Source of the DNA: Nitrospira sp.
GTDB taxonomy: Bacteria; Nitrospirota; Nitrospiria; Nitrospirales; Nitrospiraceae
Assembly (NCBI GenBank): GCA_015904045.1
Contig: JABMDG010000278.1
Location: 1-8,433, forward strand
Reading direction: 5' to 3'
Length of the DNA: 8,433 nucleotides
Numbering within the stretch: position 1 is the stretch's first letter; every line of letters starts with the position of its first letter. The notes under the pieces were generated by a model. It saw nothing but the letters and a program-made list of their open reading frames with translations, had not been told where the DNA came from and did not search any database. The position numbers and the translations under genes were made by a program. Positions 1 to 8,433 of this stretch are shown here, piece by piece.

Positions 1-29
1 GAAAGAAGCCTTTCCGTTCGATAGGGCGG

Positions 30-45
30 TGGCACCAAGTTTGCC
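30..45 (+). promoter_or_regulatory. sigma-54 (-24/-12) promoter of the secreted Pro/Lys-rich protein
   Basis: The sequence TGGCACCAAGTTTGCC matches the sigma-54 consensus TGGCAC-N5-TTGC exactly, with the GG and GC dinucleotides at the required spacing. Transcription would start near 56, giving a leader of about 58 nt before the ATG at 114. Any activator-binding site would lie upstream of the window start and cannot be seen. The same promoter class precedes the two small membrane-protein genes further right. Confidence 0.8.
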
Positions 46-59
46 TATTGGATGGCGGG

Positions 60-73
60 AGTGGCACGCCACT
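60..73. promoter_or_regulatory. short palindrome at the start of the leader
   Basis: AGTGGC-AC-GCCACT is a perfect 6-bp inverted repeat starting about 4 nt after the predicted sigma-54 transcription start. It could be a 5'-end-protecting hairpin or a protein site. It contains a second TGGCAC, but no GC follows at the -12 position, so it is not itself a sigma-54 promoter. Confidence 0.3.
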
Positions 74-113
74 TTATGGCTCAACCTCACACACTCGCAC
101 AGAAAGGATCAGT

Positions 114-482
114 ATGACGATCAAGATTATTTCAACTGTCACCGCGGCTGCGGTGTTACTGGCATTCTCCAATGTGTTCGCTCAAAGTGAAGCTCCGACA
201 CCGGCTGTTCCAACCCCGCCTCCCGCATCGACGCCGGCGCCTGTTCCGGTCCCTGCCCCTGCCCCTGCGCCTACAATGGAAGGTGAGAAGAAAGCTGAAA
301 AGCATGAAGATGGAGCGGAAAAGGAAGGGAAGGGCCGCGGGAAAGGAAAACACAAAGGGAAGGATCGTGAAAAAGGCAGTGACAAAATGCGTGGATTAGA
401 TCGGGCGGACGAAATGGCCGGTGAGCATGGCAAACAGGGGCGTGACAACGCCCGCAGCCGTGGAAAGCGAGGCAAGGACTGA
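114..482 (+). CDS. small secreted protein with Pro/Ala-rich linker and highly charged Lys/Glu/Gly tail
   Basis: This 122-aa protein starts at the ATG at 114, which is preceded by an AGAAAGGA ribosome-binding site. The longer open frame from 48 would put an unlikely hydrophilic stretch ahead of the signal peptide. Residues 1-23 are a clear Sec signal peptide ending VFA. Residues 26-53 are Pro/Ala/Val/Thr rich, with a PAP/PVP pattern typical of extended periplasmic linkers. Residues 56-122 are almost entirely Lys, Glu, Gly, Asp and Arg and are probably disordered. No enzymatic domain is visible. The layout suggests a periplasmic or extracellular polyelectrolyte-like protein, perhaps binding polyanions or the cell wall, but this is inference. 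A strong sigma-54 promoter upstream implies activator-dependent expression. I do not recognise a named family. Confidence 0.8.
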   Translation: MTIKIISTVTAAAVLLAFSNVFAQSEAPTPAVPTPPPASTPAPVPVPAPAPAPTMEGEKKAEKHEDGAEKEGKGRGKGKHKGKDREKGSDKMRGLDRADEMAGEHGKQGRDNARSRGKRGKD

Positions 483-532
483 CCGCGTATCCTCCGTAAG
501 TAGTATCGATTCTCATGGAGAGTTGATAGAAA

Positions 533-561
533 GCGGCTGGCCCATCATGTGGGCCGGCCGC
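533..561 (-). terminator. strong hairpin between the secreted-protein gene and the first membrane micro-protein
   Basis: A 12-bp stem with one G-U wobble (533-544 paired with 550-561) and a 5-nt loop lies between two convergent genes. Read on the - strand it is followed by TTTCTATC, a weak U-tract. It is therefore more likely to end the leftward transcript, though it could also slow the rightward one, whose stop codon is 50 nt away. Rightward there is no U-run. Confidence 0.4.
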
Positions 562-718
562 ATGTCATTGCCTCGTGAATCGATTGAAAGAGAAGGAATG
601 TTCCTGCTTTCAGATAGATTCCCCGCCTTTAGAGCGGGAGCTCTATCGCTTGTGGCCGGCACGATGAAGCTGATCTTCGGTAGCCCGCTGCACGGGTGAC
701 AGTGCGCGAGAAGACCCG
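562..718. other. intergenic sequence without a gene
   Basis: Open frames here are short, lack ribosome-binding sites and have no recognisable protein features. Apart from the flanking hairpins I see no repeat or promoter. It probably contains the 3' end of the leftward micro-protein transcript. Confidence 0.4.
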
Positions 719-747
719 TGTGCGCCGGCCTGCGTACCCGGCGCACA
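719..747 (-). terminator. conserved 3' hairpin of duplicated unit A
   Basis: TGTGCGCCGG pairs perfectly with CCGGCGCACA around a 9-nt loop. The same element sits at the equivalent place in unit B. There one stem pair is changed on both sides (G727-C739 here, A1495-T1506 there), so pairing is preserved although the sequence differs. It lies about 90 nt downstream of the micro-protein stop. No good U-tract follows on the - strand, so it may be an mRNA 3' stabiliser or processing signal rather than a simple terminator. Confidence 0.45.
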
Positions 748-837
748 ACTGGTTCATGATCTATCAGTTTGAGGGGGACACAGGGGATCGATCGGTAGGT
801 AGATGAGGACCTCTGATCGGATCAGGCTGACAGACCA

Positions 838-1035
838 TCACGCGGCGCGTTGGAGCGCTACCCTCCGCCTGACTGGATAGATCACGCCGATGTTCCTGTC
901 TCGAGGTTGCGTGACCTCTCTTGCGGCATGCGCAGGACCTTCCTCAAGCGACTGTGCGAACCAACTTCCACCGATATAGCCGAGAACGCACATACAGATT
1001 AGTGCTGCAGCAGAGACAACCAGTATCGTTTCCAT
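838..1035 (-). CDS. 65-aa single-span membrane micro-protein, EEGPA/IYPxRR family, copy A
   Basis: The ATG at 1035 is chosen because a strong GGGAGG ribosome-binding site lies just before it; the upstream in-frame extension has no such support and would cross the promoter. Residues 4-26 form one hydrophobic transmembrane segment. A cytoplasm-facing basic tail is likely because the C-terminus is Arg-rich. Two motifs are shared with the paralog at 1605-1787: SWFAQSLEEGPA directly after the membrane span and NIGVIYPVRR near the end. Conservation of these motifs between otherwise diverged copies supports real coding. A sigma-54 promoter lies about 36 nt upstream by predicted start site. Function is unknown. 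Phage-shock-type small membrane proteins are an analogy in size and promoter class only. Confidence 0.75.
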   Translation of the reverse strand: METILVVSAAALICMCVLGYIGGSWFAQSLEEGPAHAAREVTQPRDRNIGVIYPVRRRVALQRAA

Positions 1036-1081
1036 GACACCTCCCTGGGCAGTTTCTCGATTCTGAAGTCGATCTTCTTTG

Positions 1082-1097
1082 AGCAAAAGGAGTGCCA
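1082..1097 (-). promoter_or_regulatory. sigma-54 promoter of micro-protein A
   Basis: On the - strand TGGCACTCCTTTTGCT is a perfect TGGCAC-N5-TTGC with correct -24/-12 spacing. Predicted transcription start is near 1071, leaving a 36-nt leader before the ATG at 1035. A candidate activator site lies 165 bp further upstream. Confidence 0.85.
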
Positions 1098-1261
1098 ATT
1101 AGGCCGTTCGGTTGACTCTGGAAGTCGAAGAGGCAGAGGGGATGATCTGGCAAGAATGAGCATCAACGACCAACCTGAATGGGGTCTTGTGTTGTATTGC
1201 TGTAGAGAACTTTGGCAGAGGCGACTGCAATGTGCTCTGGAGACGGGACAGGCTACGCAGT

Positions 1262-1285
1262 TTTTGTCGGCCTCCGACAAACTTG
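1262..1285 (-). promoter_or_regulatory. candidate upstream activator site, unit A
   Basis: TTTGTCGG (1263-1270) and CCGACAAA (1274-1281) make a perfect 8-bp inverted repeat with a 3-nt spacer, followed by CTTG. It begins 165 bp upstream of the sigma-54 promoter, the usual distance for a bacterial enhancer-binding protein site. A related sequence is found 162 bp upstream of the second promoter. The binding protein is not in the window. Confidence 0.55.
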
Positions 1286-1486
1286 TTCAGCGGGTTGCGG
1301 AGGGGCCGGATCTCCGTAGCCAAGTCTGATTCGGGTGAGGAAGTTCAATGGGCCAGCAGCGAACAGGGAAAAGGCGATTGACCTCCTGGGACATTCAGTT
1401 ATTAGGATCAGGTAGCCCCGATTGATAGGTTGCCGACTGCCCCGTGAAGAAGAACCGGGCTCAGAAGTCGTGCAGGAGAAAACCAC
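1286..1486. other. intergenic spacer between the duplicated units
   Basis: I see no coding sequence here. The short frames lack start signals and protein character. A CCTCCTGGGA patch near 1383 resembles the ribosome-binding region of unit A in reverse, but no ORF or promoter goes with it. This is probably spacer, possibly a remnant of another copy. Confidence 0.35.
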
Positions 1487-1514
1487 TGTGCGCCAGCCGG
1501 GGCGCTGGCGCACA
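1487..1514 (-). terminator. conserved 3' hairpin of duplicated unit B
   Basis: TGTGCGCCAGC pairs perfectly with GCTGGCGCACA (11 bp) around a 6-nt loop. On the - strand it is followed by GTGGTTTTCTCC, so a short U-tract is present a few bases after the stem. It may terminate the micro-protein B transcript. The compensatory base pair relative to unit A supports selection on RNA structure. Confidence 0.5.
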
Positions 1515-1604
1515 ATCTGGTAATGATCTGTCAGTTTGAGTGAGGGTCACAGGGGATCTATTCGTGTATAGATGGGGACCTCTGACCGGATCAGACTGAG
1601 GCGA

Positions 1605-1787
1605 TCACACGCGTCGCGATTCCGCCCACCGCCTAGTCGGGTAGATTATCTCGACGTTGCCAGGGCGAGACTTTTCTACCGTAGCAGCAGGACCTTCCTC
1701 AAAGGTTCTGAGGAACCAGTCCGACACGGTGCGGCTAAAAAACCAGACAAAACCCGTCAATAATGCAAGCCCCAATATAACGCTCAT
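1605..1787 (-). CDS. 60-aa single-span membrane micro-protein, EEGPA/IYPxRR family, copy B
   Basis: The ATG at 1787 has an excellent AAAGGAGG ribosome-binding site. Residues 3-25 are a hydrophobic membrane span rich in Trp and Phe. DWFLRTFEEGPA follows, and NVEIIYPTRR lies near the C-terminus, matching copy A at both motifs. The residues between are diverged and three shorter, and the N-terminal span shares character rather than sequence. The predicted leader from the sigma-54 start is about 51 nt. The charged C-terminal tail should face the cytoplasm. I do not recognise a named family. The conserved EEGPA and IYPxRR patches may be contact sites for a partner protein, which is inference. Confidence 0.75.
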   Translation of the reverse strand: MSVILGLALLTGFVWFFSRTVSDWFLRTFEEGPAATVEKSRPGNVEIIYPTRRWAESRRV

Positions 1788-1848
1788 GATGCCTCCTTTA
1801 GGAACTCCCTATTCCACAGCGTTCTACAACCGATCCTGGCTGTGGCAG

Positions 1849-1864
1849 TGCAAGGGTGGTGCCG
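1849..1864 (-). promoter_or_regulatory. sigma-54 promoter of micro-protein B
   Basis: On the - strand CGGCACCACCCTTGCA differs from TGGCAC-N5-TTGCA only at the first base, and the GG/GC spacing is exact. Predicted start is near 1838. It occupies the same place relative to its gene as the unit A promoter. Confidence 0.75.
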
Positions 1865-1941
1865 GGGTTGTCCTCTGGCAGGTACGTATGATGAGAAATT
1901 GATACAATCACACGCATGTGCTTGAAGAATGGTGCAAGGTG

Positions 1942-1988
1942 GGCTCTCCAGCTATGTGCGTCTCGGAGGCCCGCTCAGCCGGAGAGCC
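1942..1988. promoter_or_regulatory. 8-bp inverted repeat between activator site and promoter of unit B
   Basis: GGCTCTCC (1942-1949) and GGAGAGCC (1981-1988) are perfect reverse complements separated by 31 nt. Unit A has no visible counterpart. It could help DNA looping or bind a regulator, or it could be chance. Confidence 0.25.
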
Positions 1989-2025
1989 AGTAGATTGCGC
2001 TGTGGGGTGTGACGCTACCTCCACA

Positions 2026-2052
2026 TTTTGTCTCACTGTCTGATCAAACTTG
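2026..2052 (-). promoter_or_regulatory. candidate upstream activator site, unit B
   Basis: TTTTGTC (2026-2032) and CAAACTTG (2045-2052) match the outer parts of the unit A element. In both units a GCTAC word precedes it by a few bases. The dyad is less perfect than in unit A and the inner spacer is 2 nt longer. Its distance to the promoter is 162 bp against 165 bp in unit A. Confidence 0.45.
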
Positions 2053-2215
2053 ACCGTCTGCCTGCCTGAGAATCCTTGACTGGTAAGCCTTCGCAGATGA
2101 AATAGCGTTGGTGTGGAGGCCCCTGCCATGTGCTCAAGAAGGGAGGCGAATGTCTATGCCGGGTATCTCTGGAGGTGCGGAGCTTCGATTTGAGCAGAGG
2201 CAGAACTCTTCGTGC
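2053..2215. other. intergenic sequence without a gene
   Basis: No convincing frame is present here. It lies downstream of the - strand gene ending at 2216 and upstream of unit B. I see no strong terminator hairpin, so transcription of the upstream - gene could read towards unit B. Confidence 0.3.
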
Positions 2216-2647
2216 TTAGGCAGCCGGCAGGGTCAGCAGTTTTTTCATCTCACAGTGGGCCATGACGACGTCCGGAGCCCGTTGCAGCGCCTCATAATAG
2301 CTTCGCTCAAAGCCGTCACCCAATTCGGAGGGCCGGATCAAGGCTCGCACTTCGGTCAGAAGGATGGCTACATCCTCGGTCGCCAGTTCTTCGTCATCGT
2401 CCAACACTTCGTCGATCCGGACCACCATGTTTGACAATGGATGGAGCCAGGTAAACCACGGATCATTCATGACCAATTGCAGTAACTGCCCTGTCGAATC
2501 GACGCGTCCGTAGATCCGCTCGAAGGTCACCTGTTCGGCGACGATCAGAGCTTTGTGCAGGCCCAAGAGCCCTTGCCGCACATCGGTCAGCATCCGGCGG
2601 AGAGGGTTGGTTATCAGAACCCGTGCCTGTTTTGACGATGTCGCCAT
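2216..2647 (-). CDS. conserved-looking hypothetical protein, helical, 143 aa
   Basis: The reading frame is complete and its codon use fits the neighbours. The protein has no signal peptide or membrane span and is probably cytoplasmic. It looks mostly alpha-helical, with a central NDPWFTWLHPLSNMVVRIDEVL segment split by Pro and an acidic DDDEEL patch around residues 84-89. I have an impression of similar unnamed bacterial proteins with a WFxWL...IDE core, but I cannot assign a family or function. There is no clear Shine-Dalgarno before the ATG at 2647. On the - strand TGCTAGAAT (2654-2662) resembles an extended -10 box, which would make the mRNA almost leaderless. It is divergent from the exported protein starting at 2870. 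Confidence 0.7.
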   Translation of the reverse strand: MATSSKQARVLITNPLRRMLTDVRQGLLGLHKALIVAEQVTFERIYGRVDSTGQLLQLVMNDPWFTWLHPLSNMVVRIDEVLDDDEELATEDVAILLTEVRALIRPSELGDGFERSYYEALQRAPDVVMAHCEMKKLLTLPAA

Positions 2648-2692
2648 GCTGTAATTCTAGCAGGTCATTTAAAAAATGGTGGTGCGGGGTAA

Positions 2693-2720
2693 CAGGGGAG
2701 CATTTTGTTGTGCTCCGCTG
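2693..2720. promoter_or_regulatory. hairpin in divergent intergenic region
   Basis: GGAGCA (2697-2702) pairs with TGCTCC (2711-2716), and outside a single G-G mismatch CAG pairs with CTG, enclosing an 8-nt T-rich loop. It lies between divergent genes, so an operator is more likely than a terminator. There is no direct evidence for either. Confidence 0.25.
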
Positions 2721-2803
2721 TGATTTCTTATCGGATTCAAGAGACTGGTCCTGTAATTGGACGGAGAGGAGAACGTCAGACTCTAGAAGCAGTTGAAAAC
2801 TCG

Positions 2804-2832
2804 TTGACTTGCGCCCCTGGCATACGTCCAAT
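2804..2832 (+). promoter_or_regulatory. possible sigma-70 promoter of the 131-aa exported protein
   Basis: TTGACT (2804-2809) and TCCAAT (2827-2832) are separated by 17 bp. The -35 is good and the -10 moderate. Transcription would start near 2839, about 31 nt before the ATG. Confidence 0.35.
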
Positions 2833-2869
2833 GGTAACAAGATGGGCGTCGTTAAGGAGGAGGGACCTG

Positions 2870-3265
2870 ATGCGTTTGCCAAAAAAACAGGGTGCCGCGG
2901 CAGTGCTGGGTATCAGCGTGGCCGTATGGTGCGGTTCGCTCGGCGTGGCGGGCGAACGGGGCGTGCCGCCGCACCTTTCACGGCCGCCCGATATATCCAC
3001 CGAGCGGCTGGATCGTCCTCGTCCGGAGCAAGATCGACCCTTGCTTCGGCAATCGGAGGCGGTCGCGCTGGCCAAAGCGGCGGCGAAACAGGAGCTGGGT
3101 CGTTCGTTCGATGAGTTTGAACTGACGGCGGCGGTGTTCGATCCCACCGAGAATTCTTGGTCGGTCACCTTTCGTCCGAAGCAACCCCGTGTTCCCTCAG
3201 AGGGGTGTGTCGTCGTCTTCGTGCGTGCCGATACGAGAGCCACGGATATTCGCCGGTGCTCATGA
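2870..3265 (+). CDS. exported hypothetical protein, 131 aa
   Basis: The start at 2870 follows an excellent AAGGAGGAGGG ribosome-binding site with a 5-6 nt gap and opens directly into a signal peptide. The longer frame from 2705 is rejected because it buries this signal. Residues 1-28 are the signal peptide, with a probable cleavage near GVAG. Residues 31-58 are a Pro/Arg-rich linker. Residues 60-131 form a small alpha/beta domain: a helix with AVALAKAAAKQ, then strands around TAAVFDPTENSWSVTFRPK, SEGCVVVFVRAD and a C-terminal RRC. This helix-then-WxVxF layout recalls PepSY-like or NTF2-fold immunity-type domains, but I could not confirm either. It is convergent with the NlpC/P60-like gene, with only 15 nt between the stops. 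Confidence 0.75.
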   Translation: MRLPKKQGAAAVLGISVAVWCGSLGVAGERGVPPHLSRPPDISTERLDRPRPEQDRPLLRQSEAVALAKAAAKQELGRSFDEFELTAAVFDPTENSWSVTFRPKQPRVPSEGCVVVFVRADTRATDIRRCS

Positions 3266-3280
3266 CGCGTGATTGCCGCA

Positions 3281-4003
3281 TCAGAAGTCCAAGCGTGTAC
3301 CGAAAAACGAGAACAACTCTCCCGTGAGTCGGCCACTGTCGTCGGGATCGGTGGGGTGTTTACGACGGAGATAGTCGTTCAGGATGCGGCCCTCGGCTGT
3401 TTTGTGGAGATGAGGCATGCTGAGATTCATGCGGTACCGTTGGATGGCGGCGGCCACGCGGCTGATGAAAATCACAGTCCCATCGGGATCAATTTGTTCG
3501 ACGACCCCAACATGTGTAAGGGGATCGTTTAATTCACCGTCTCCATTGAAATCCCAGGTGTTGTTGAAAAACACCAGATCTCCGGGATGGGGGATGGGAC
3601 TCTGGTGAAGCCTGCCGTGTTGCTGCATGTGGGCATGGATCAACCGTACGCCGTTCGCATCGGAGTCCCCGGGATTACCGTCGTACAAGTCGATGCCGTG
3701 CTTCAAGAAGATGGCGCGGGTGACGCCGGCGCAGTCATAAGTGATGCGCCGTCCTTCGCTTGCGATGGTCTTTGCGCCGACGAGCTTGGCCGCCGTTCGC
3801 ACAATTGCTGATCGACTCGGTCCGGGGAGAGCGGCGTGGCAGCATGTGCGTTTCGCCGAAATCGACGGGGTGGGGCGTGTAACCGACACCGTCGGTTCAG
3901 TCGGTTCTGTCGAGGCCGATGTGTTTCGAGGGTGGAGCGGCACGGTCGTGCAGCCCGCGAGTGTCACGATGGCTATGGCGGTCACAATGAACAGGACACG
4001 CAT
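3281..4003 (-). CDS. NlpC/P60- or CHAP-like lipoprotein, putative peptidoglycan hydrolase
   Basis: The start at 4003 is preceded by GGGAG and opens with a lipoprotein signal; Cys18 in LAGC is the lipidation site. The upstream in-frame ATG at 4036 would add a non-signal extension. Residues 20-60 are a Thr/Pro/Ser-rich linker. The catalytic domain carries YDCAGVTRAIF with Cys91 as likely nucleophile, HPGDLVFF at 139-146 and THVGVVE with His164 as likely general base. Between the last two lies DFNGDGELND (151-160), a DxNxDG calcium-loop-like insert. Such cysteine peptidases cut or amidate peptidoglycan peptides, here probably anchored in the periplasm. Substrate and exact bond are unknown. The C-terminal part (RMNLSMP...ILNDYLRR...LTGELFSFFG) looks intact at 240 aa in total. 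A sigma-70-like promoter precedes it, so it is probably transcribed alone. Confidence 0.85.
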   Translation of the reverse strand: MRVLFIVTAIAIVTLAGCTTVPLHPRNTSASTEPTEPTVSVTRPTPSISAKRTCCHAALPGPSRSAIVRTAAKLVGAKTIASEGRRITYDCAGVTRAIFLKHGIDLYDGNPGDSDANGVRLIHAHMQQHGRLHQSPIPHPGDLVFFNNTWDFNGDGELNDPLTHVGVVEQIDPDGTVIFISRVAAAIQRYRMNLSMPHLHKTAEGRILNDYLRRKHPTDPDDSGRLTGELFSFFGTRLDF

Positions 4004-4045
4004 GGGATCTCCCGTGGGGCAGGCGCACAGAGCCATTGGCCAGGA

Positions 4046-4074
4046 ATGGTACCACGCGGGGCGAGTTCGACCAA
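4046..4074 (-). promoter_or_regulatory. sigma-70-like promoter of the NlpC/P60-like lipoprotein
   Basis: On the - strand TTGGTC (4069-4074) and TACCAT (4046-4051) are spaced by exactly 17 bp. The expected start near 4039 gives a leader of about 36 nt before the ATG at 4003. Confidence 0.45.
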
Positions 4075-4144
4075 GAAAAGGAAGGTTTGCGGCTGCGGAA
4101 CGTGACCGTGCGCCGCGCGACGAATCGCGCAGGAATACTGCGGG

Positions 4145-4882
4145 CTAGGTTTTGCCTGGTGCTTCGAGCGCTTTGCCGATCTCACCGATCAAGCGGCGTT
4201 CGATCTCGGCGGTCTCCTCGGCGCTGACACTGAGGAGGCGACCGCCTTGCGCGACCTTTTCAAATTCGGCCTTCACGCCGAGTTTCGTGACATTGGCGGG
4301 TAAGGCCTGAAGTGAGATGAGGTACTGGTTCCGAAAGCCGGCCACTTCCAGTGACGCCGGATTGGAGATCTTGCGGTCCGTGATATAGACGGCTTTCTGC
4401 TCCGTCTTGATACCGACCTTGAGTTGGTAGCCGTTGCGTGAGAGGGCTTCTTCCACCACCTTGGCAACGATGCCGAGCGGGCGCGATAGAGTATCGAACT
4501 GCGCGCCTTTGTCATCAATCTTCACGTTCTGGGCCGCTTGCGCCGCTGCGGTCCGTTGGATCTCCGCGTTCATCCGTTTGGCCTGTGCCAGCTGGTCGTC
4601 CAGGAGTTCGGACAGGCGCGCGGTCGACGCCTTGGCGGACTCGGTGGCTTGTTTGGCGTCGCGGAGTTCCTGATTGAGCAGGTCGATTTGCTGTTGCATG
4701 ACTTTGTTGCCGTCTTGCAGCGAGGTCAACAACGACTCCTGCCTCGACACCTGCTTTTTCAGCGCTTCGTTCTCACCTTTCAGTGGAGACTCGTCAGGCG
4801 CGCAGCCGGATGCAGCCAGGAGGAGCACGAGGAGGCCGAGCGCCCTCGGTCGGCCAGTCGAGGGTGTCTTGTGGTCACACAT
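4145..4882 (-). CDS. coiled-coil lipoprotein, 245 aa
   Basis: A basic N-terminus and hydrophobic segment (14-26) lead to AASGC with Cys27 as lipidation site, so the mature protein is membrane-anchored in the periplasm. Residues 34-120 are heptad-rich (ENEALKKQV, LLTSLQDG, QQIDLLNQEL, ARLSELLDDQL), clearly a long coiled coil. Residues 130-245 form a globular domain with alternating strands (YQLKVGIKT, KAVYITDRK, YLISLQALP, LGVKAEF) and a C-terminal helix. No catalytic motif is visible. The role is probably structural or as an envelope assembly or tethering factor, but I do not recognise a named family. The ribosome-binding site is weak. A good sigma-70 promoter lies just upstream and the gene is divergent from the 207-aa exported protein. 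Confidence 0.8.
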   Translation of the reverse strand: MCDHKTPSTGRPRALGLLVLLLAASGCAPDESPLKGENEALKKQVSRQESLLTSLQDGNKVMQQQIDLLNQELRDAKQATESAKASTARLSELLDDQLAQAKRMNAEIQRTAAAQAAQNVKIDDKGAQFDTLSRPLGIVAKVVEEALSRNGYQLKVGIKTEQKAVYITDRKISNPASLEVAGFRNQYLISLQALPANVTKLGVKAEFEKVAQGGRLLSVSAEETAEIERRLIGEIGKALEAPGKT

Positions 4883-4911
4883 GAGGATGGTTCTCCAAAA
4901 ATGGTCGTCCG

Positions 4912-4940
4912 ATTATCCATGCTTCCCCGCCTCTTGTCCA
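4912..4940 (-). promoter_or_regulatory. sigma-70 promoter of the coiled-coil lipoprotein
   Basis: On the - strand TGGACA (4935-4940) and GATAAT (4912-4917) each match the consensus at 5 of 6 bases, with a 17-bp spacer. Transcription should start near 4905, leaving a leader of about 23 nt. Confidence 0.65.
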
Positions 4941-4954
4941 TGTCGCCCTGGAAA

Positions 4955-4984
4955 TTGACCGCCTCGGAAGCCTGCCGGTATGCT
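4955..4984 (+). promoter_or_regulatory. possible sigma-70 promoter giving a leaderless or near-leaderless mRNA
   Basis: TTGACC (4955-4960) and TATGCT (4979-4984) are spaced by 18 bp. A start 6-7 nt after the -10 box would fall on the ATG at 4991. This fits the absence of a Shine-Dalgarno sequence before that ATG. Confidence 0.4.
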
Positions 4985-4993
4985 GCCGGTATG
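4972..4993 (+). repeat. exact 11-bp tandem duplication at a start codon
   Basis: CTGCCGGTATG occurs twice back to back (4972-4982 and 4983-4993). The second copy ends in the start codon at 4991. The first copy creates an extra ATG at 4980 that opens a 4-codon frame (M-L-P-V) whose TGA overlaps the main start as ATGA. The -10 box candidate lies across the junction. Confidence 0.8.
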
Positions 4994-5614
4994 ACGAAAT
5001 TGGCAACGGTGCTGGTGGTCGCGTGGCTGGCCTGTCCATTGCCTGTCCTTGTGTCAGCCGGTCAAGGGGATTTGGGAACCGGGATTCCTGCCGAAGACTA
5101 TGGGTTGTACGACCAGGTCGTCGAGCGAAAATTTCTCACCTCGCAGACGAAATTGGTGTTGCTCGAACGCGCGACCGTATCCCGGATTTTTCCTGATCAA
5201 ACGGAACCGATGACGGAGGGATGGCTTCACGAGCGGAACTATTTCATGGGCCAATTGCCGGCGGACCTCGTGCGGGATTTTGTCGGTGCCAATCGCACCG
5301 CCTCTCGGCTTGACGCACGGTTCCAGTTCGGCGTTCGGTACCGATTCATGTCGGCTGGTTCCATCGAAGAACCGGAGGTGGCATCAGCGTTGCCCGTGCA
5401 AGCGCCTCCGGTATTGGATCGGCTCGCCTTTTCGCGGGTGGGCCGCACGTTGCGCAACGATCAGGCGCTGCTCTACGTGGAAAATTTTCGGCCGGATGGC
5501 ACCGGGGCTGGGTTTTTGGTCTGGTTTCACCGGCACGAACGCAGCTGGGTGTTGGCCGATACCGAAGTGGTGTGGACTCTTCACGGCCAGGAACGAGCAG
5601 AGGAGAGGTCGTAG
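4991..5614 (+). CDS. exported hypothetical protein with SRVGxT...QALLYVE motif, 207 aa
   Basis: The start at 4991 opens straight into a signal peptide (residues 1-24, cleavage near VSA-G); upstream in-frame ATGs at 4919 and 4940 give poorer signals. The mature protein shows EDYGLYDQVVERKF near its start, VLLERATVSRIFP at 57-68, a central LVRDFVGANRTASRLDARF and a C-terminal block LAFSRVGRTLRNDQALLYVENFRPDGTGAGFLVWFHRHERSWVL (145-188). The pattern SRVG...QALxYV...GxGxxVxxxxxxxxW is familiar to me from unnamed exported proteins in several phyla with no known function. No catalytic residues stand out. There is no Shine-Dalgarno sequence. The next gene follows 39 nt later in the same direction, so co-transcription with the hydrolase is likely. 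Confidence 0.8.
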   Translation: MTKLATVLVVAWLACPLPVLVSAGQGDLGTGIPAEDYGLYDQVVERKFLTSQTKLVLLERATVSRIFPDQTEPMTEGWLHERNYFMGQLPADLVRDFVGANRTASRLDARFQFGVRYRFMSAGSIEEPEVASALPVQAPPVLDRLAFSRVGRTLRNDQALLYVENFRPDGTGAGFLVWFHRHERSWVLADTEVVWTLHGQERAEERS

Positions 5615-5653
5615 CTTGCGTCGTAGCGTACGGGAGCGGTAGCATGCACGGTC

Positions 5654-6295
5654 ATGGCTGCCCTGATTCGAAAGACCTTTTCGGTGCCTCCCCTCGGATG
5701 CAACTGCTCGATCATCGGCGACCCGGTCACTAAGCAAGCCATCGTGATTGATCCGGGCGGAGCCCATGAGCGCATTCTCCACGAAGTCCACCAGCTGGGG
5801 CTCACCGTCAGCCACATCCTGCACACCCATGCCCACTTCGATCATTTCCTGGCGTCCGGTGCGATGAAGCAGGCCACAGGGGCCGTCCTCTGTCTGCACC
5901 AAGACGATCTCGACCTATGGAAGAACCTCGACGTGCAGTGCCGGATGTTCGGCGTGCCGTCAGGGGCCGTGCCGATGCCGGATTATTGGCTTGAGGACGA
6001 GGAGAAACTCTTGCTGGGCGACATTCCTGTGTTTGCCCTGCACACGCCGGGCCATACGCCAGGGTCGATGAGTTTTCATGCGCCGGGCGACAAACTGGTC
6101 TTGGCAGGAGACACGTTGTTCCGCGGCAGTATCGGGCGCACCGATTTGTGGGGCGGCGATTTCGATGCCATCGAGCAGTCGATCAGAGAGCGGCTCTATA
6201 CCCTCGATGACACGACGGTGGTGGTGACAGGCCATGGGCCGGAGACCGAAATTGGCAGGGAGAAGGAATCGAATCAATTCTTTCGCGTGTCGTAA
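5654..6295 (+). CDS. metallo-beta-lactamase-fold hydrolase, type II glyoxalase II-like (GloC/YcbL type)
   Basis: At 213 aa this is the length of short YcbL/GloC-type enzymes, which lack the C-terminal domain of classical glyoxalase II. The metal ligands are all present: HxHxDH at 59-64 (THAHFDH), His134 in GHTPGSM, Asp153 in AGDTLFRGSIGRTDL and His194 in GHGPETEIGREKESNQF. The RGSIGRTDL and GREKxxNxF signatures are typical of this subgroup. The expected reaction is hydrolysis of S-D-lactoylglutathione or a related thioester in methylglyoxal detoxification, in the cytoplasm. The true thiol cofactor in this organism is unknown. There is no good ribosome-binding site within 12 nt of the ATG. Three GTAGC words lie between the preceding stop and this start. 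It is probably in one operon with the exported protein upstream. Confidence 0.93.
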   Translation: MAALIRKTFSVPPLGCNCSIIGDPVTKQAIVIDPGGAHERILHEVHQLGLTVSHILHTHAHFDHFLASGAMKQATGAVLCLHQDDLDLWKNLDVQCRMFGVPSGAVPMPDYWLEDEEKLLLGDIPVFALHTPGHTPGSMSFHAPGDKLVLAGDTLFRGSIGRTDLWGGDFDAIEQSIRERLYTLDDTTVVVTGHGPETEIGREKESNQFFRVS

Positions 6296-6311
6296 TCAGA
6301 AATTGTCGCGG

Positions 6312-6623
6312 CTAGTCTTTCCCCATGCGCTCTTTCAGCCGTTCGAGCCGCCTCTCGGTGGATTGCTTGATGAACGTCATGTTCTCGGCCAAGTGCTGCT
6401 GGGCAGTGATCTTGCCCTCCTCGCGTCTTTTGAGCTGATCGAGCCCGAATTGGGAGATGATCGGGCCATCTTCCAGGTTCAGCTCTTTCCAAATTTCGGC
6501 ACAGCGTGATTGTTTGACAGGCGGATACTTGTCGCACGGAGGATCAACGGGTTTTGCCTCCACGCCGGTGTGAATGGCGAGCCCCAAGAGGACGAAGAAA
6601 ACGATCCGCAGAAATCTGAACAT
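6312..6623 (-). CDS. small exported protein with two cysteines and helical tail, 103 aa
   Basis: The ATG at 6623 is preceded by AAAAGGAA with an 8-nt gap and opens into a signal peptide ending VEA at residue 23. The frame open from 6671 lacks this logic. The mature protein starts KPVDPPCDKYPPVKQSRC, with Cys30 and Cys41 able to form a disulfide in the periplasm. The rest is helical and charged (LDQLKRREEGKITAQQHL, STERRLERLKERMGKD). I do not recognise a family. It is convergent with the hydrolase gene, 16 nt between stops. Its start lies only 16 bp from that of the divergent methyltransferase, so its promoter must lie inside that gene. Confidence 0.75.
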   Translation of the reverse strand: MFRFLRIVFFVLLGLAIHTGVEAKPVDPPCDKYPPVKQSRCAEIWKELNLEDGPIISQFGLDQLKRREEGKITAQQHLAENMTFIKQSTERRLERLKERMGKD

Positions 6624-6639
6624 CGTACGTTCCTTTTCT

Positions 6640-7284
6640 ATGGCTGACCGTTCGACCACGCACCATACCATAACGTATGTCGTCGCGCAGACCCTTCGGA
6701 CCTATGAGAAGGATGCTGAGATCTTTCTCCAACAATGGGGACGCAAGAAGTACAAGCGGCCGGCACTGCTGAAGGAATGGGTGGCGTTGTTGCCCAGCCG
6801 GGCAGTGGTGCTCGATCTGGGCTGTGGTGCCGGTCAAGACGCGCGGTATCTCGCTTCTCTGGGGCACCGAGTCGTCGGGCTGGATCGTACGACCCCGTTG
6901 CTACGATTCGCTAAGGGGCGTAAGGCTGCTTTGCCGTTTGTGCAGGCAGATATGCGGGCCTTGCCTGTTCGAACCGGTAGCTTCGATGGAATTTGGGCGG
7001 CGGCCTCGCTCATGCACGTGCCCAAGCCGGTGGCGCAGCAGGTGTTGAAGACGCTGCGGGACTGCGTACGGCCAGACGGCTTGCTGGCCGCGACCATCAC
7101 GCATGGCTGGCACAGCCGTATCAAAACAGAAGGCTGGATGCCGGGCCGCTACTTCGCGCGGTGGAAAAAGGACGAACTGGCCAAGGCCCTCCATCGTACT
7201 GGCTGGCAGGTCCTGTCACTGCGCGTCGTCAGTAATCGGGAACGGAAGGGTCGGTGGATCAACGTGATCGCGCGGGGAATATAA
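6640..7284 (+). CDS. SAM-dependent class I methyltransferase
   Basis: From the ATG at 6640 the protein is 214 aa. Motif I is VVLDLGCGAGQDARYLASLG (56-75). The acidic residue at the end of strand 2 is Asp82 in VVGLDRT. QADMRALPV (102-110) contacts the adenine region in such enzymes, and FDGIWAAASLMHV (115-127) is the strand-4 motif. The C-terminus has the usual ELAKALHRTGWQVLSLRVV end. This is a Methyltransf_11/25-type fold, likely acting on a small molecule in the cytoplasm; the substrate cannot be inferred. The first 40 residues are atypical and basic (QQWGRKKYKRPALLKEW). The start is uncertain: no Shine-Dalgarno precedes 6640, and a further in-frame ATG at 6574 would overlap the divergent gene. 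Confidence 0.85.
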   Translation: MADRSTTHHTITYVVAQTLRTYEKDAEIFLQQWGRKKYKRPALLKEWVALLPSRAVVLDLGCGAGQDARYLASLGHRVVGLDRTTPLLRFAKGRKAALPFVQADMRALPVRTGSFDGIWAAASLMHVPKPVAQQVLKTLRDCVRPDGLLAATITHGWHSRIKTEGWMPGRYFARWKKDELAKALHRTGWQVLSLRVVSNRERKGRWINVIARGI

Positions 7285-7344
7285 GCTGCATCTTCCTTTC
7301 TCCCATGATCTGTATTCTGCGCCGGCTTTGCGCTGGGGAGATCC

Positions 7345-7373
7345 TTGACAGGATTGTGAAAGCAGATGAGAAT
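7345..7373 (+). promoter_or_regulatory. sigma-70 promoter of the DUF4160-DUF2442 operon
   Basis: TTGACA (7345-7350) is a perfect -35 box. A 17-bp spacer leads to GAGAAT (7368-7373), a 4 of 6 match to the -10 box. The leader would be about 88 nt long. The rest of the 7285-7467 gap shows no gene and no clear terminator for the methyltransferase. Confidence 0.55.
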
Positions 7374-7467
7374 CGCACAACCTGCTCCCAGCTGAGGAGG
7401 CGCGGGATGTGGCGGTCAGTATGCTCATTAGTTAGGCTAGAGCGAGACTCTGCGATAGGGTAAGAGG

Positions 7468-7728
7468 ATGCCGGCGATCTCTATATTTTTTGGAATCATC
7501 ATCAAGATGTTCTACAACGAGCATGAGCCGGCGCACTTTCACGCTGAGCATCAGGGGCAGCGAGGAAAGTTCGACCTCACCGGTCGGATGGTGGTCGGCA
7601 ACATTGGTTCCAGGACGGCTCTGCGTCTGATCAGGCAGTGGGCGAGAGAGCATGAGGCAGAGATCAGAGCGAACTGGCGGCGGATGAAGGCGGGTAAGCC
7701 GCTCGAAATGATTGAGCCGTTGCGATAA
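7468..7728 (+). CDS. DUF4160 protein, possible toxin-antitoxin-type partner
   Basis: The 86-aa protein matches the DUF4160 pattern throughout: the N-terminal ISIFFGIIIKMFYNEHEPAHFHAEH (family pattern ISxFxGIxIxMYxxxHxPPHFHAxY), then FDLTGRMVVGNIG, the helix ALRLIRQWAREHEAEIRANW and the terminal MIEPLR. Length is typical for the family. His and Glu residues in the EHEPAHFHAEH cluster are the most conserved part and could be functional. Start choice fits the family N-terminus. It is followed 19 nt later by a DUF2442 gene, the usual partner of DUF4160. The pairing has suggested a type II toxin-antitoxin-like module, but biochemical function is not established as far as I know, and which member would be toxic is open. 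Confidence 0.88.
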   Translation: MPAISIFFGIIIKMFYNEHEPAHFHAEHQGQRGKFDLTGRMVVGNIGSRTALRLIRQWAREHEAEIRANWRRMKAGKPLEMIEPLR

Positions 7729-7747
7729 TTGTGAGAGAGGAGGCGTC

Positions 7748-8008
7748 ATGAACAGGATCCCGTGTGTGACCAAGGCCGAATATCGGGGCGGCTACCGGAT
7801 TCATGTGACCTTCGATGACAATTCCGAAAAAACGATCGACTGCCGACGCTACCTGAAGGGGCCGGTCTTTGAGCCGCTGAAGAATGTGAAGTACTTTCAG
7901 CGATTCTTCCTCGACGGCTGGACGGTCGCCTGGCCGAACGGTGCGGACATTGCGCCGGAGGAACTGTACGAGTGCGCCGAGGTCGGCTCCGAACGTGGAG
8001 CGGCCTAA
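7748..8008 (+). CDS. DUF2442 protein, partner of DUF4160
   Basis: The ATG at 7748 is preceded by GAGAGGAGG. The 86-aa product shows the DUF2442 order: AEYRGGYRIHVTFDDNSEKTIDCRRYLKGPVFEPLKNVKYFQRFFLDGWTVAWPNGADIAPEELYE, ending in the diagnostic WPNGADIAPEELY motif (about 60-72). It is a small cytoplasmic alpha/beta protein without a catalytic signature, and in such pairs it is the natural antitoxin candidate by analogy only. The frame open from 7712 overlaps the previous gene and is not used. The two genes are surely one transcript, given the spacing and no promoter between them. Confidence 0.88.
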   Translation: MNRIPCVTKAEYRGGYRIHVTFDDNSEKTIDCRRYLKGPVFEPLKNVKYFQRFFLDGWTVAWPNGADIAPEELYECAEVGSERGAA

Positions 8009-8040
8009 CTCGGTCATAGAGGCTGATGTTAACCAACGGT

Positions 8041-8121
8041 ATGACTGATAAAGAAATTCGGAAAAGTAAGTCCAGTGAGTTTAGAAGTGGAGTACGCGCG
8101 GTTAAAGATCTGACCCCATGA
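8041..8121 (+). CDS. possible 26-codon leader peptide overlapping the next start
   Basis: An ATG at 8041 opens a 26-aa basic, hydrophilic frame (MTDKEIRKSKSSEF...) whose TGA overlaps the next ATG as ATGA at 8118-8121. The following gene has no Shine-Dalgarno of its own, so translational coupling is possible. The ribosome-binding site of the short frame is also poor, and it may be chance. A TTAAAGATCTGACCCC stretch sits at its end. Confidence 0.25.
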   Translation: MTDKEIRKSKSSEFRSGVRAVKDLTP

Positions 8122-8433
8122 GTTCCATGAGAGCCCAAGCAGAACGGAAGCTGTACGAGCGGCTAACCGTCTTTCAAAACGATCTTAGTCAAGCTGTCTA
8201 CTTTGCGAACCACCTCCTGAAGAAGGGATGGCACTTCGATCCGTGGGATAGAAAGATAAGGTGGTCCACATACATGCAGCAGGCTGCTTTCACCAGTGCA
8301 TTAGTGTCCGCGTACTGCAGGCCATTCGCAGGAGCGAGGGCTGCTCCAACGCTGTCAATGAAGCTGGCGCCGTACTGTGCGAACGAACGTCACCTTCACG
8401 AAAAGATGAAATCGCTCCGAAATACGGTCTACG
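8118..8433 (+). CDS. partial hypothetical helical protein, possibly HEPN-like, cut by window end
   Basis: The frame stays open from 8118 to the window end (105 complete codons). An in-frame TAA at 8103 fixes the start to 8118 or 8127. No signal peptide or membrane span is present. The sequence is helical and rich in aromatic residues: KLYERLTVFQNDLSQAVYFANHLLKKGWHF, then WSTYMQQAAFTSALVSAYCRPFAGARAAPTLS, then ERHLHEKMKSLRNTVY at the edge. The last segment resembles unnamed proteins in which LRNxxYAH follows, giving an R-x5-H arrangement similar to the HEPN ribonuclease motif; the histidine would lie just beyond the window. Codon use is slightly more AT-rich than the neighbours, which may indicate accessory DNA. 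It follows the DUF4160-DUF2442 pair by 109 nt. Confidence 0.7.
   Translation, partial: MSSMRAQAERKLYERLTVFQNDLSQAVYFANHLLKKGWHFDPWDRKIRWSTYMQQAAFTSALVSAYCRPFAGARAAPTLSMKLAPYCANERHLHEKMKSLRNTVY

Follow-up and report, generated by a model that had tools for sequence, protein, structure and literature searches.

The phage shock (Psp) regulon is a familiar case of small membrane proteins under the control of sigma-54. In Nitrospira, widespread nitrite oxidisers that are hard to grow and to manipulate, regulons are little known. Here we analyse an 8,433-nucleotide (nt) stretch of Nitrospira sp. DNA (contig JABMDG010000278.1, positions 1-8,433, forward strand; the window), in which predicted sigma-54 promoters precede three genes, A, B and C, for small exported or membrane proteins. 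Despite this likeness to the Psp regulon, searches of Pfam and NCBIfam with A, B and C gave no Psp model at the E-values used, and no match of any kind above a model's cut-off. Gene A also recalls the acid-shock protein Asr in being exported, repetitive and basic, but scores 17.5 bits against NF033636, whose cut-off is 50. Asr itself is not known to be under sigma-54 control. Haft et al. (2006, PMC1569441) describe in Proteobacteria the PEP-CTERM/PrsK-PrsR sigma-54 regulon, in which the mean distance is 63 nt from an activator motif to the -24/-12 motif downstream of it and 71 nt from the latter to the start codon. As at our locus, its units are mostly single genes for exported proteins; however, its motif 1 has TTTACA at the end, no PEP-CTERM signal model of Pfam or NCBIfam matches A, B or C, and the one regulator scanned, the linked NtrC-like protein discussed below, reaches 422.8 bits against TIGR02915 (PrsR), under the cut-off of 502.6. 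The view of sigma-54 as a controller of the bacterial exterior (Francke et al., 2011, PMC3162934) shares with our locus the theme that sigma-54 targets concern the cell exterior, although it is a broad comparative theme and the passages available are silent on this regulon. In the literature searched, whose scope excluded most subscription papers, no title or abstract described the regulon, its elements, proteins A, B and C or the Lys/Glu-rich family introduced below, and PMC12316311, searched by term, does not mention Nitrospira.

Comparison with relatives leads us to propose, with a probability of roughly 70%, that A, B and C are all transcribed by sigma-54 RNA polymerase with at least two activators, A and the B/C pair being under separate elements. 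The locus would thus probably join two sigma-54 sub-regulons. The promoters and genes concerned are as follows.

30 to 45, plus strand: sigma-54 -24/-12 promoter of gene A (TGGCACCAAGTTTGCC), an exact TGGCAC-N5-TTGC.
114 to 482, plus strand: gene A, 122 amino acids, with a signal-peptide-like start, an Ala/Pro-rich part and then a Lys/Arg/Glu-rich tail (open reading frame (ORF), by reading).
838 to 1035, minus strand: gene B, by reading a single-pass membrane microprotein of 65 amino acids with one hydrophobic segment.
1082 to 1097, minus strand: sigma-54 promoter of gene B (TGGCACTCCTTTTGCT), an exact TGGCAC-N5-TTGC at an aligned place conserved in three relatives.
1605 to 1787, minus strand: gene C, by reading a single-pass membrane microprotein of 60 amino acids with one hydrophobic segment.
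1849 to 1864, minus strand: sigma-54 promoter of gene C (CGGCACCACCCTTGCA), with one mismatch (CGGCAC) that is TGGCAC in G064 and G071.

A preliminary description of the window had pointed to three -24/-12 sites, two perfect and one with a single mismatch, at 36-58 nt from predicted start to ATG and ahead of small exported or membrane proteins, and our analysis agrees. TGGCAC-N5-TTGC with at most one mismatch occurs five times in the window, where 0.72 matches are expected on average, and none of 200 shuffles gave as many as five. Three of the matches are the promoters, with the motif itself at 30-44 (plus strand), 1083-1097 and 1850-1864 (both minus strand); the remaining two, at 5379 (plus strand) and 7598 (minus strand), fall within ORFs. 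A looser 16-base pattern with at most two mismatches occurs 8 times in the window against 4.5 expected, a weak excess reached by 21 of 200 shuffles. GG at -24, GC at -12 and the fixed spacing are present in all three promoters, and the predicted +1 lies 58 nt (A), 36 nt (B) and 51 nt (C) before the ATG. Comparison with related genomes finds the sites conserved. The B + C pair was found in 3 of 79 genus genomes (G001, G064 and G071), where the B site reads TGGCACTCCTTTTGCT in the window, G001 and G064 and TGGCATTTCTCTTGCT in G071, and the C site reads CGGCACCACCCTTGCA in the window and G001, TGGCACCTCGCTTGCA in G064 and TGGCACCTCGATTGCA in G071. Gene A has 24 database homologues and matches in 43 of the 79 genomes at an E-value of 1e-3, many of them short and weak. 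Its promoter was scanned at 21 of the 30 homologue loci returned (L024-L044) with site weights taken from the consensus and left unfitted; 10 of the 21, that of G001 among them, carry a strong site at 60-80 nt from the ATG. Both rpoN and activator AAA domains occurred in all six relatives searched, and no activator gene was seen in the window, as had been noted, either in the ORF listing or by Pfam in the 10 ORFs scanned. The reading of the sites as sigma-54 promoters is well supported by their conservation and spacing and by rpoN in these relatives. A genome-wide scan for sigma-54 sites, which had been suggested as a check, gave a mixed answer: perfect sites exceed the control in G001 (10 vs 5), G017 (6 vs 3) and G024 (4 vs 3) and fall below it in G022 and G012, so that the overall excess is mild and non-uniform. 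G001, the nearest relative, is 96% identical to the window from base 102 on over the compared stretch (blastn). Bases 1-101, before gene A, gave no blastn alignment to G001, though both retain the sigma-54 site, and recombination at the promoter of gene A is possible.

The ten strong-site gene A promoters, anchored on the site, differ widely in upstream DNA (mostly 21-43% identical ungapped, with two pairs at 55 and 67%), yet despite this dissimilarity they hold common blocks near -91 and near -115. These form a two-part element, a TGAGGC-type block followed by TTYTGCYAC; in all ten promoters, G033 included, the best score of the second block falls 96-100 nt before the site. A pattern built from the A promoters alone found four places in the 79 genomes: two A promoters, one place in G010 without the arrangement of a sigma-54 site and an exported charged gene, and one in G027 where a sigma-54 site is followed by a 78-residue exported Lys/Glu-rich protein unrelated to A. 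Among 235 genomes of the order, TTCTGCYAC-N75..105-GGCAYN5TTGC occurred at 90 places in 73 genomes, against 10 for the reversed control (table counted by eye). Of the 107 places given by the TTCTGCYAC and TTTTGCYAC patterns together, 47 were read as loci; 22 of them carry GAGGCRGTTT and then TTYTGC 25-27 nt on, and all 22 are followed by a small exported charged ORF (21 recognised by script, and L144 by its reading frames). A stricter expression of the element accepted 19 of the 22. Four of the remaining 25 loci are gene A homologues (L123, L136, L143 and L148). The other 21 are different, and in no case is the gene that follows a member of the Lys/Glu-rich family; the script also flagged L151 among them, with a 220-residue protein of a different sort, and several carry a different block ahead of enzyme-like ORFs. 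The Lys/Glu-rich family has at least 1207 database homologues at 1e-3; nearly all the named ones among the 120 matches listed are hypothetical proteins, several from Nitrospira, and two members that were scanned matched no model above cut-off.

A matrix made from the 22 loci recovers the element at gene A, where it matches 9 of the 10 strong-site promoters (z-scores 2.4-7.0), with no shuffle out of 60 as good in eight of the ten and one out of 60 in G095. Where the gene A site is decayed, in two promoters, the score stays at background. None of the B promoters of four genomes scores above background (z -0.1 to 0.4), nor do three of the four C promoters, that of G064 being weak and at another distance (z 2.4, at 79 nt). 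Eight other sigma-54 promoters of G001 gave two scores of 1.5 and 2.0 and six at background. Comparison thus places the module at gene A in relatives and finds it absent at B and C, and the single activator for all three genes that the preliminary description had assumed is not supported (9/10 A, 0/4 B and, weakly, 1/4 C). Because the window has just 29 nt before the gene A site, the enhancer of this strain's gene A cannot be seen; the module would lie left of base 1.

Genes B and C are 38% identical to each other, and C has 16 database homologues. Ratios of nonsynonymous to synonymous substitution (dN/dS), from three pairs each with few changes, were 0.10, 0.24 and 0.47 for C and 1.16, 0.40 and 0.32 for B. 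Upstream of both lies another candidate element.

1263 to 1285, minus strand: candidate enhancer of B, CAAGTTTG-N9-GACAAA, containing TTTGTCGG-N3-CCGACAAA (defined after the fact).
2027 to 2052, minus strand: candidate enhancer of C, CAAGTTTG-N12-GACAAA (defined after the fact).

In the window, CAAGTTTG ends 180 nt before the site at both genes, and GACAAA lies 165 nt (B) and 162 nt (C) before it. The window contains the combination at B and at C and nowhere else, and shuffles do not contain it at all; among the 173 loci collected it occurs in 16, which amount to two genomes rather than sixteen cases since all are B/C upstream DNA of G001 or G064. G071 retains the CAAGTTTG half at both B and C and not the whole pattern. 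Because B and C share this different candidate element, they could well be under one activator.

Regulation is throughout predicted from these comparisons, and what we infer about transcription itself, the activators, the signal and the protein functions may be set out as follows. Gene A would be part of a regulon of Nitrospiraceae whose products are small, exported and highly charged, probably disordered, and in which one enhancer-binding protein would bind a TGAGGCRGTTTAGC-like block and then a AGCYATTYTGCYACAG-like block, with about 26 nt from GAGGC to TTYTGC. This element would lie about 80-100 nt before the -24/-12 site, and the gene would be switched on by an envelope or nutrient signal; the envelope response named in the preliminary description is a presumed one. 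For the tandem paralogues B and C, a different activator would act through CAAGTTTG-N-GACAAA, some 165 nt upstream, to turn on transcription, and the transcripts would end in a duplicated hairpin 3' region. Going further, we see about even odds that Nitrospiraceae have a dedicated sigma-54 regulon that is defined by a single compound enhancer and yields small exported proteins of extreme charge, drawn from two or more unrelated families (A and the Lys/Glu-rich one). Such a regulon would be a conditioning system of the surface or periplasm, specific to this lineage of nitrite oxidisers, and at this locus would stand next to a second sigma-54 system, which makes tandem membrane microproteins. 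A regulon that can be read from sequence would offer a testable handle, namely an enhancer and a promoter that are both defined and a large family of uncharacterised exported proteins, and two control systems are told apart where first sight suggested one.

Several observations weigh against the proposed reading. Of the 21 gene A homologue loci, 11 are without an intact site (two decayed at 73 nt and nine with none). The four places of the A-only pattern compare with six in the reversed control and it is therefore unenriched as a count; the TTTTGCYAC form gave only 17 places against 9 in its reversed control; the A promoter of G033 is at background for the two-part matrix (z 0.3); and the 80-100 nt range from enhancer to site is bounded by the search pattern itself. 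The B/C element was chosen post hoc after the sequence had been seen, with loci from two genomes (G001 and G064), and local alignment of the DNA upstream of B with that upstream of C does not outscore shuffled sequence (231 of 300 shuffles as good); over eight pairs of A, B and C upstream regions, 93-297 of 300 shuffles were as good. Distant B/C-like relatives in G008, G009 and G090 have no convincing sigma-54 site, and in G008 and G009 gene A is without one too, as if the two genes had changed together.

This last point, with the presence of three sites inside 1.9 kilobases (kb) and of TGTAGG-N6-GCTACA before C of G064 and G071, which recalls part of the A element, would fit one enhancer-binding protein driving A, B and C together through sites at B and C too degenerate to see. 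We regard this as unlikely, since the A matrix does not rise above background at any of the four B promoters or at three of the four C promoters, and B and C have a different element in common. The perfect dyad TGTRGC-N6-GCYACA, a candidate prompted by A of G070 and C of G064, showed no excess over the reversed control in the 79 genomes (by eye) and was replaced by the two-part element.

A further alternative concerns B and C, for which the RNA could outweigh the peptide and the duplicated hairpin 3' region of a sigma-54-driven transcript could act as a small RNA.

705 to 845, minus strand: 3' region of B, two hairpins, a duplicate of that of C (82% identity over two blocks; fold z -2.9).
1475 to 1612, minus strand: 3' region of C, two hairpins, the second terminator-like (fold z -5.9).

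In the window and G001, these 3' regions are 78-86% identical between B and C, against 70-71% for the coding DNA, and their folds are stable. However, only the terminator stem is well kept (9 of 11 pairs in 7 of 7 sequences); the upper hairpin stem has many broken pairs and little covariation, one pair in 32 having changed at both bases (RNAalifold). In G064, moreover, the 3' identity is 71%, C appears protein-coding, and a covariance model of the 3' region under stricter filters gave five hits in three of the 79 genomes, all at B/C loci, so that a small RNA role is distinctly improbable. Rfam gave two matches in window positions 1-2700, both far under their cut-offs. Very improbable, finally, is that the sites are unused and the genes expressed from other promoters, as the at most mild genome-wide excess of perfect sites and the nine A homologue loci with none might suggest, because position and sequence are kept while the surroundings diverge and the enhancer module sits at a fixed distance.

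Within the preferred reading of at least two activators, a linked NtrC-like regulator of 457 amino acids, under every curated NCBIfam cut-off shown, was weighed as the activator acting on the A-type element. Of 30 genus genomes with the Lys/Glu-type site, 20 have the regulator on the same contig, 7.7-10.8 kb away, and it shares a contig with gene A in 13 of 18 (9.7-19.0 kb). Of the 30 sites, 15 were read as loci and 15 assumed from the matched pattern string; for G017, among the latter, the region examined had no match to the element expression. Against this linkage, it occurs in 206 of 235 genomes, many of them without sites, and is missing at a cut-off of 1e-130 in G015, G083, G186 and G192, all site-bearing (completeness 54%, 83%, 99% and 76%), with nine further non-matching genomes beyond those listed. 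In the four genomes compared from genera g25 and g27 (G149, G154, G158 and G182), the regulator lies far from the site or on a different contig. It was therefore not accepted and stays a candidate.

Some arrangements around gene A vary among relatives. In G017 (L169), gene A lies about 110 base pairs from a gene for 143 amino acids (window 2216-2647) without the 1.7 kb carrying B and C, an arrangement that two more relatives resemble; the B/C segment is a variable insertion, or was lost in G017. Near gene A in G001 (L020, 1-3162) and beside the B/C-like gene in G009 (L009) are glutamate synthase genes, named by reading, which make a nitrogen signal conceivable.

Among loci with the Lys/Glu-rich family, the exported frame of L144 (G020) is shifted relative to the start codon, pointing to an assembly error or a broken gene. 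At L107, L113, L115, L126, L128, L138, L139 and L141, a TGTCGCATTTC..GGGCA-like block accompanies TTYTGCYAC and sigma-54 sites ahead of YbaK-like, CBS, citrate-synthase-like and other ORFs (names by reading), and possibly marks another regulon. Elsewhere in the window, two small ORFs at 7468-8008 (plus strand) resemble the DhiT/DhiA toxin-antitoxin pair below cut-offs (34.6 against 100 and 22.4 against 200 bits). In G001, perfect sigma-54 sites also precede flagellar-rod-like (L064), Hsp20-like (L063) and STAS-like (L062) ORFs, again named by reading, and at L060 (contig C24) such a site is followed by a hydrophobic peptide of 31 amino acids starting MTRTQWLLLGAVG and then by a CBS-domain-like ORF.

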